Positions 6,791 to 23,685 of a DNA stretch of 36,361 nt are shown in pieces. The notes beneath the pieces are model-generated. The model was not told where the DNA came from, made no database searches, and was given only the letters and a program-made list of their open reading frames with translations. The stretch is taken from positions 1 through 36,361 of the forward strand of contig JAPLHQ010000073.1 in assembly GCA_026389555.1 (NCBI GenBank), read 5' to 3'. Numbering within the stretch: position 1 is the stretch's first letter; each line of letters begins with the position of its first letter. Source of the DNA: Chloroflexota bacterium. GTDB lineage: Bacteria > Chloroflexota > Limnocylindria > Limnocylindrales > Limnocylindraceae. The position numbers and the translations under genes are program-made.

Positions 6791-8647
6791 ATGATCCCCG
6801 AGGCGATCTCCGCCGCGCTGCAGGTGCTCCCTGACGCTCCTGGCGTCTACCTCTTCTCGGATGTGGAGGGGAAGATCATCTACGTCGGAAAGGCTTCGCG
6901 CCTCACGCAGCGCGTTCGAAGCTACTGGCACTCCAACACCACGCCTGGTGCGCACCGTATTCGTGATGTGATCGATCAGGTCGCAACGCTTGAGTGGACC
7001 GTGACCGATTCAGTGAAGGAGGCGCTCCTCCTTGAGGCAACACTGATCCGAAAGCACCTGCCGCGCTACAACGTGCGCCTGCGTGATGATCGGAGCTATC
7101 CATATATCCGCGTCACCGCTGGTCCATATCCTCGCGTTGAGCGAACGCGCCGTCTGGTGCGCGACGGATCACGCTACTTCGGGCCGTACACCGGGCCAGG
7201 CTCCGTCAATACCGCGATGGAGGCGGCGCGTCGCCTCTTCCAGTTCCGCACCTGTGAGATTCCGATCGCGGCAGAGCAGCAGGCACTGCAGCGACCCTGC
7301 CTCCTCTTTCATCTGAAGCGTTGTCAGGGACCCTGCCTCGGCAACGTTCCTGTTGCGGAGTACGGCGCAGAGATCAAAGGGCTTGAACTCTTCCTCGGCG
7401 GGAGATCACGCGGCGCAGTGAAGGTGCTGCGCGAGCGCATGGAGCGCGCCAGTGAAACCGAAGCGTACGAGGATGCGGCGCGGCTACGCGATGCGATCAC
7501 CTCACTTGAGCGTGATGCTGAGGCGCAGCGCGTCCCTCCTGCGGGACGACCCGACGAGGATCTTCTCGGCATTGCGCGACACGGAGATCGTGCTGCCATC
7601 GCCTGCTTCCAGATCCGTGACGCGGCGCTTGTTGGTCGTGATGTGCACCGCCTAGACGCGAAGGGGGTGAGCGATGAAGAGCTGCTCGCCTCGTTCATGA
7701 GCCAGTACTACGCGCGTGCAGGAGAGATCCCGCCATCAATCGCCACGGCGCTTCCTATTGGTGATCCAGAGATGGAGGACTTCTTAGCGGCACGGCGTGA
7801 AGGGAGTGTTGAGCTCCGCGTCCCGCTCCGTGGTGATCGTGTCCGCATCCTGCGCCTCGCTGAGCGAAATGCGCTGGAAGGTCTGATCCGCAGTGAGGCG
7901 GAAGATGACGCCGATCGCGAACGCGCTGAGGCGGCGCTCTCCGCCCTTTCGGTTGCCCTGAACCTTCCGAGCGCGCCGACGCGCATTGAGTGCACTGACG
8001 TCTCTACGATCCAGGGTTCTTTCACCGTCGCCTCGCTCACCGTTGCGATGGATGGTCGTCTTGCTCCGAAGGAGTACCGTCGCTTCAAGATCAAAGGGGT
8101 GCAGGGCCAAGATGACTTTGCTGCGCATACGGAAGCGCTGACGCGACGCTTCGCCCGGAGTGCTGGCACTTCTAGTGAGAAGGCGGGTGAGGCCGAGGCG
8201 CGGGCGTGGGCGCTGCCCGACCTTCTCGTTATTGACGGTGGTCGCGGACAGGTATCCGCCGCCGCAGCGGTACTTGAGGCGGCGGGTCTCAACATTCCGT
8301 TGATTGGCCTTGCGAAAGAGCGAGAAGAGATCTGGCCGAGCGGAGCGACCACGCCACTGCTCCTCCCCGCAACTGATCCTGGGCTGCGGCTGTTGCAGCG
8401 ACTTCGTGACGAAGCGCACCGCTTTGCGATCGGTTATCACCGCACCCTGAGGAGTCGCGCGGCGACGGAGAGCCGGCTCGACAGCATCCCTGGCCTTGGC
8501 GCTGCGCGGAGGAAGGCGCTACTGCGACAGTTCGGCTCCGTCGCCGGGGTTGCCGCCGCGAGCCCCGACGAGCTCGCCACCGTCCCTGGGGTGGGGGAGC
8601 GCCTCGCCGCCGCCATCAGTGCTGCGCTCGCCGCCGACCGACGCTGA
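6791..8647 (+). CDS. uvrC: Excinuclease ABC subunit C
   Basis: GIY-YIG N-terminus LPDAPGVYLFSDVEGKIIYVGKA, UVR region, RNase H-like ECTDVSTIQGSFTVAS, C-terminal HhH (IPGLGAARRKALLRQFGS, VPGVGERLAAAI). Confidence 0.98.
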   Translation: MIPEAISAALQVLPDAPGVYLFSDVEGKIIYVGKASRLTQRVRSYWHSNTTPGAHRIRDVIDQVATLEWTVTDSVKEALLLEATLIRKHLPRYNVRLRDDRSYPYIRVTAGPYPRVERTRRLVRDGSRYFGPYTGPGSVNTAMEAARRLFQFRTCEIPIAAEQQALQRPCLLFHLKRCQGPCLGNVPVAEYGAEIKGLELFLGGRSRGAVKVLRERMERASETEAYEDAARLRDAITSLERDAEAQRVPPAGRPDEDLLGIARHGDRAAIACFQIRDAALVGRDVHRLDAKGVSDEELLASFMSQYYARAGEIPPSIATALPIGDPEMEDFLAARREGSVELRVPLRGDRVRILRLAERNALEGLIRSEAEDDADRERAEAALSALSVALNLPSAPTRIECTDVSTIQGSFTVASLTVAMDGRLAPKEYRRFKIKGVQGQDDFAAHTEALTRRFARSAGTSSEKAGEAEARAWALPDLLVIDGGRGQVSAAAAVLEAAGLNIPLIGLAKEREEIWPSGATTPLLLPATDPGLRLLQRLRDEAHRFAIGYHRTLRSRAATESRLDSIPGLGAARRKALLRQFGSVAGVAAASPDELATVPGVGERLAAAISAALAADRR

Positions 8648-8673
8648 CGACCGACGCTGATCGGCACCCCTGC

Positions 8674-23459: not shown

Positions 23460-23535
23460 GCCGAGATAGCTCAGTTGGTAGAGCACGCGCCTGAAGAGCG
23501 CGGTGTCGCCAGTTCGAATCTGGCTCTCGGCACCA
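23460..23535 (+). tRNA. tRNA-Phe(GAA), CCA encoded
   Basis: gccgaga/tctcggc acceptor + ACCA; anticodon stem-loop cgcgc-ctGAAga-gcgcg. Confidence 0.96.
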
Positions 23536-23604
23536 TCAGCGGTTGTTAGAAGAGCGCGGTGTCGCCAGTTCGAATCTGGCTCTCGGCACCATCAGCGGTT
23601 GTTA
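23493..23604 (+). repeat. Perfect 2 x 56-bp tandem repeat containing the 3' half of tRNA-Phe plus an 18-bp spacer scale downstream segment
   Basis: gaagagcgcggtgtcgccagttcgaatctggctctcggcaccatcagcggttgtta occurs at 23493-23548 and again, identical, at 23549-23604. Confidence 0.98.
23549..23591 (+). pseudogene. Partial tRNA-Phe duplicate (anticodon to CCA, no 5' half)
   Basis: Second repeat copy carries GAA anticodon, 3' anticodon stem strand, variable loop, T-arm, 3' acceptor strand and CCA, but no D-arm or 5' acceptor. Confidence 0.9.
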
Positions 23605-23609
23605 ACGGC

Positions 23610-23685
23610 GCGGAAGTGGCTCAGTTGGTAGAGCATCACATTGCCAATGTGAAGGTCGCGGGTTCGAGTCCCGTCTTCCGCTCCA
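23610..23685 (+). tRNA. tRNA-Gly(GCC), CCA encoded
   Basis: gcggaag/cttccgc acceptor + TCCA; tcaca-ttGCCaa-tgtga. Confidence 0.96.

Follow-up and report, generated by a model that had tools for sequence, protein, structure and literature searches.

A tandemly duplicated tRNA-Phe 3' half in a draft freshwater Chloroflexota genome is probably an assembly joining artefact

Contig JAPLHQ010000073.1, part of a draft metagenome-assembled genome (MAG) of a freshwater Chloroflexota of the Limnocylindrus/Aquidulcis type, carries an intact tRNA-Phe gene followed directly by a second copy of that gene's 3' half, the product of an exact 56-bp tandem repeat. Does this half gene belong to the organism, or was it written by the assembly? 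The assembled sequences compared here argue that the repeat is most likely a joining artefact and not a feature of the organism. This reading follows from the repeat being exact, blunt and private to one assembly, and from five kindred repeats in the same MAG that are absent from relatives; it draws further on the fact that three of the repeats break reading frames, and that at another, the 91-bp repeat, a contig of the same bin ends exactly on the junction. The whole stretch of DNA analysed, hereafter the window, is a complete contig of 36,361 bases (G000:C69, where G000 is the source MAG, Gnnn are genus relatives and Cnn are contigs). The source MAG is fragmented, with 1,160,482 bases on 127 contigs.

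The repeat and its locus in relatives

Tandem Repeats Finder (TRF) reports positions 23493-23604 as a repeat of period 56 with 2.0 copies and 100% match, and an independent repeat search returned the identical result, with copies at 23493-23548 and 23549-23604. These coordinates and this copy number agree with an earlier sequence-only reading, which had also correctly described each copy as beginning at the first anticodon base, G34, and running to the CCA plus 13 bp of spacer. The repeat is maximal: it extends into neither flank, the two copies abut, and homology at the junction amounts to 0 nt. An exact tandem repeat of 56 bp cannot have arisen by chance. The features of the locus are as follows.

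23460..23535, + strand: tRNA-Phe(GAA), intact, with an encoded CCA; no other close tRNA-Phe match turned up in the MAG (ARAGORN, Rfam, genome search)
23493..23548, + strand: repeat copy 1, tRNA-Phe from G34 to CCA plus 13 bp of spacer (TRF, repeat search, relatives)
23549..23604, + strand: repeat copy 2, tRNA-Phe 3' half plus the identical 13 bp of spacer; in no relative (TRF, repeat search, relatives)
23548..23549, no strand: internal junction TTGTTA/GAAGAG, where the break lacks homology and a false join is suspected (junction analysis)
23610..23685, + strand: tRNA-Gly(GCC), intact; in relatives it stands directly after the single tRNA-Phe and a short spacer (tRNA search, relatives)

ARAGORN and Rfam both find a single intact tRNA-Phe gene, which contains copy 1, and neither calls a tRNA gene in copy 2, a region whose score against the tRNA model, only 15.7 bits, falls below the cut-off of 29. 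Copy 2 is thus a 3' tRNA half, as had been proposed, and it passes into the native continuation leading to tRNA-Gly. The window has one tRNA cluster, Leu-Leu-Val-Phe-Gly-Gln-Cys, so that six further tRNA genes (Leu, Leu, Val, Gly, Gln, Cys) surround the repeat in what is, as first described, an otherwise intact cluster. It is flanked by a peptide-binding-protein-type open reading frame (ORF) and by another that we read as rpsF, both names resting on the translations.

The sequence-only reading had suggested comparing the locus in related genomes, and the comparison went against a genuine extra half. The genus set comprises 19 genomes including the source MAG, and 13 of the others have the tRNA-Phe locus assembled; all 13 have a single copy. 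In the closest relative, G016, whose 5.4-kb contig is 95.4% identical to the window, both flanks are identical and only the 56 bp are missing. Among these assemblies the extra 3' half is, by sequence comparison, private to the source. The contig of another relative (G007:C2) begins inside tRNA-Phe. As a separate observation, the tRNA cluster of G017:C113 looks mosaic: its Phe side resembles the window's lineage, and its Gly-Gln spacer matches the other genus clade, which points either to recombination or to a chimeric bin.

What does a natural duplication look like in this genus? The window offers an example, a tandem repeat of 13 bp (8635-8660) where uvrC ends. It is shared with G004, where the surrounding 101 bases align without gaps at 97% identity, and is missing from G016 and G017. 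This distribution among the sequences is the pattern of an older, natural duplication, unlike that of the 56-bp repeat.

Kindred repeats across the assembly

We surveyed the MAG for exact tandem repeats over 541,553 readable bases, window included, on contigs above ~3 kb, counting blunt exact duplications of at least 26 bp and setting aside in-frame and low-complexity repeats. Six near-blunt exact repeats emerged, of 26, 40, 47, 47, 56 and 91 bp, with each unit present exactly twice. Five of them have 0 nt of homology at the junction and the sixth has 1 nt, and none of the lengths is divisible by three. At all six sites relatives are single-copy, their matches being one unit shorter or overlapping themselves by about one unit. 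The five repeats that accompany the 56-bp repeat recur regardless of gene function, and three of them break reading frames (in lon, an NYN-domain gene and a gene for a secreted-type protein).

G000:C11 3107-3201: 47-bp repeat over the murA start, gene kept; relatives have one copy (survey)
G000:C47 1033-1126: 47-bp repeat in lon, which it divides into two frames; single-copy in relatives; probably a joining error (survey, Pfam)
G000:C38 5721-5800: 40-bp repeat in an NYN-domain gene, frame lost; relatives have one copy (survey, Pfam)
G000:C59 4820-4871: 26-bp repeat in a secreted-type protein, frame lost; G016 has one copy (survey)
G000:C68 624-805: 91-bp repeat at the 5' edge of a ResB-like gene (survey)

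Pfam confirmed the identities of the lon and NYN-domain genes on both halves, and lon has one match only in the MAG. No such repeat was found in 392,992 bases from several relatives, nor in 133,731 bases of G016. Further loci of relatives, which partly overlap these controls, yielded a single 30-bp low-complexity repeat whose length is a multiple of three. Six against none corresponds to p = 0.017 under equal rates, on what is a small tally. The survey also encountered a run of 41 N inside G000:C31 (9647-9687), which could be a gap left by scaffolding or masked sequence.

The 91-bp repeat supplies the most direct clue. At C68:714, where copy 1 of this repeat has its last base, another contig of the bin, C67, has its exact start; its bases 1-91 are the 91-bp repeat unit of C68, and its first 714 bases align with C68:1-714 without gaps at 94.4% identity. 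The bin mixes strains, since C67 is a 94% strain variant of C68. Pieces meet in this way where an assembly graph branches because two strains are present: each piece ends in the common sequence, and the next piece begins with that same sequence. C68 contains the shared 91 bp twice, for which the simplest account is an end-to-end join in which the overlap was kept.

By analogy, we infer the same origin for the 56-bp repeat. Two pieces overlapping by 56 bp, one ending in TTGTTA and the other starting with GAAGAG, would have been joined end to end without collapse of the overlap, so that the 56 bp were written twice; the true locus would hold a single tRNA-Phe gene, like that of every relative. 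The tRNA-Phe region, with its conserved tRNA sequences and strain variation, is a plausible site for pieces to end. An assembly artefact had been one of four readings offered from the sequence alone, and the kindred repeats elsewhere, together with the C67/C68 junction, now make it the favoured one. The location of the break at the anticodon was described correctly and, seen by itself, looks meaningful, but the other five repeats break at unrelated places.

Several observations weigh against a joining artefact. A search of the MAG contigs found no other contig of the bin that ends at the 56-bp junction, and the copy number is that of the assembled sequence. The six lengths vary, so a single fixed k-mer overlap fails to explain them all; k = 55/56 as the sole cause is rejected by the range of 26 to 91. 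Despite the 56-bp repeat tRNA-Phe remains whole, which is also what one would expect of a real duplication that is tolerated, and the 13-bp repeat at 8635-8660 attests that natural short tandem duplications exist in the genus. Finally, the assemblies of the relatives may come from other pipelines.

Other origins for the second copy

Could the duplication be real, recent and private to the strain? Template switching, or the blunt joining of a staggered break, might produce such a repeat, and it would be tolerated, since with copy 1 the tRNA stays whole and the only effect of copy 2 is a longer Phe-Gly spacer. We regard this origin as unlikely, though it deserves more weight than any other alternative to the joining artefact. 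The tRNA and its neighbours are undisturbed, short natural tandem duplications are known in the genus, and the 6-bp motif GCGCGG lies a few bases from both breakpoints (23498-23503 and 23608-23613), where it could have aided misalignment during replication. Replication slippage, another of the sequence-only proposals, is conceivable, but at the break itself there is no homology that would support it. Ku was found in 0/19 genomes of the genus, which gives no indication of classical bacterial end joining, and Ku-dependent joining was rejected as a candidate. The sister repeats, moreover, frameshift lon and the NYN-domain gene, and tolerance of all of these together is hard to envisage in a streamlined genome. 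That two of the repeats, the first to be found, both spare genes might have favoured a real duplication, but this argument falls with the frameshifting repeats in the lon, NYN and secreted-type genes.

RNA folding speaks against a real copy as well. In the predicted lowest-energy fold, copy 2 pairs with the 5' acceptor strand, and one T-arm pairs with the other; this fold has an energy of -64.9 kcal/mol, versus -60.0 kcal/mol when the native tRNA is imposed, in a model that takes in neither base modifications nor co-transcriptional order. With the extra copy, the prediction is thus a misfolded transcript for the only tRNA-Phe found. A bolder version, to which we assign very little probability, takes all the copies as real and the lineage as a tandem-duplication mutator: exact, near-blunt duplications of 26-91 bp would arise genome-wide without Ku, and the 5' half of the tRNA-Phe precursor could pair with either 3' half.

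Still less probable is that copy 2 has a function, giving rise to a 3' tRNA half or to a processed spacer RNA. Situated within a tRNA cluster, a real copy would be cotranscribed with it, and the tyrT repeats of E. coli are a precedent. The copy, however, is in none of the relatives, so conservation does not support the stable 3'-half RNA that had been suggested; in the folding model, copy 2 alone is barely better than shuffled sequence (z = -1.33), and the MAG-wide survey points to an artefact.

Weakest of all is an integration or excision scar, in which the 56 bp would be the attachment core of a tyrosine integrase, duplicated after loss of the element. The region from the tRNA anticodon loop to the 3' end is a usual integrase attachment core. 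Integrating elements are known to produce partial tRNA genes (PMC9897764). The genome search proposed by the sequence-only reading did reveal two integrase-family genes, but their ORFs of 331 and 328 aa are of Xer-like length; no second core copy exists in the MAG, and viral contigs searched by exact pattern lack it. Between the cores there is 0 bp, hence no integrase element; the native order is undisturbed in relatives, and excision would leave one core, not two. Abutting head-to-tail cores are the product of neither integration nor excision, and we give the scar virtually no credence.

Consequences and comparison with known systems

If the favoured reading is right, short exact tandem repeats in MAGs can be joining errors, and such errors produce spurious tRNA halves and spurious frameshifts, as in lon here. 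A cheap way to expose the problem is to tally the exact, blunt tandem repeats of each assembly and compare the tally with that of relatives. Should the copies instead be genuine, this would be an unusual tandem-duplication mutator whose mechanism is worth seeking, and the predicted misfolding would place a burden on the only tRNA-Phe found.

A literature search found no paper on this exact artefact, and three known systems offer partial parallels. In the E. coli tyrT operon, long-established distal repeats with a unit of ~178 bp, repeated more than three times, each contain a tRNA-Tyr 3' end. The likeness lies in tandem repeats that carry a tRNA 3' end and follow immediately on an intact tRNA gene; unlike tyrT, the present case consists of two exact copies in one draft genome. 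Integrative elements leave behind partial tRNA genes (PMC9897764), which are likewise fragments of a tRNA gene, but here there is no element and no second att site, the spacing is zero, and the native locus is unoccupied in relatives. False duplications in assemblies (PMC9516828) differ from the repeats described here, which are exact units of 26-91 bp arranged head to tail within a metagenome bin. They are alike in being private to one assembly and adjoining the original, in being enriched where variants meet, and in sometimes breaking genes.
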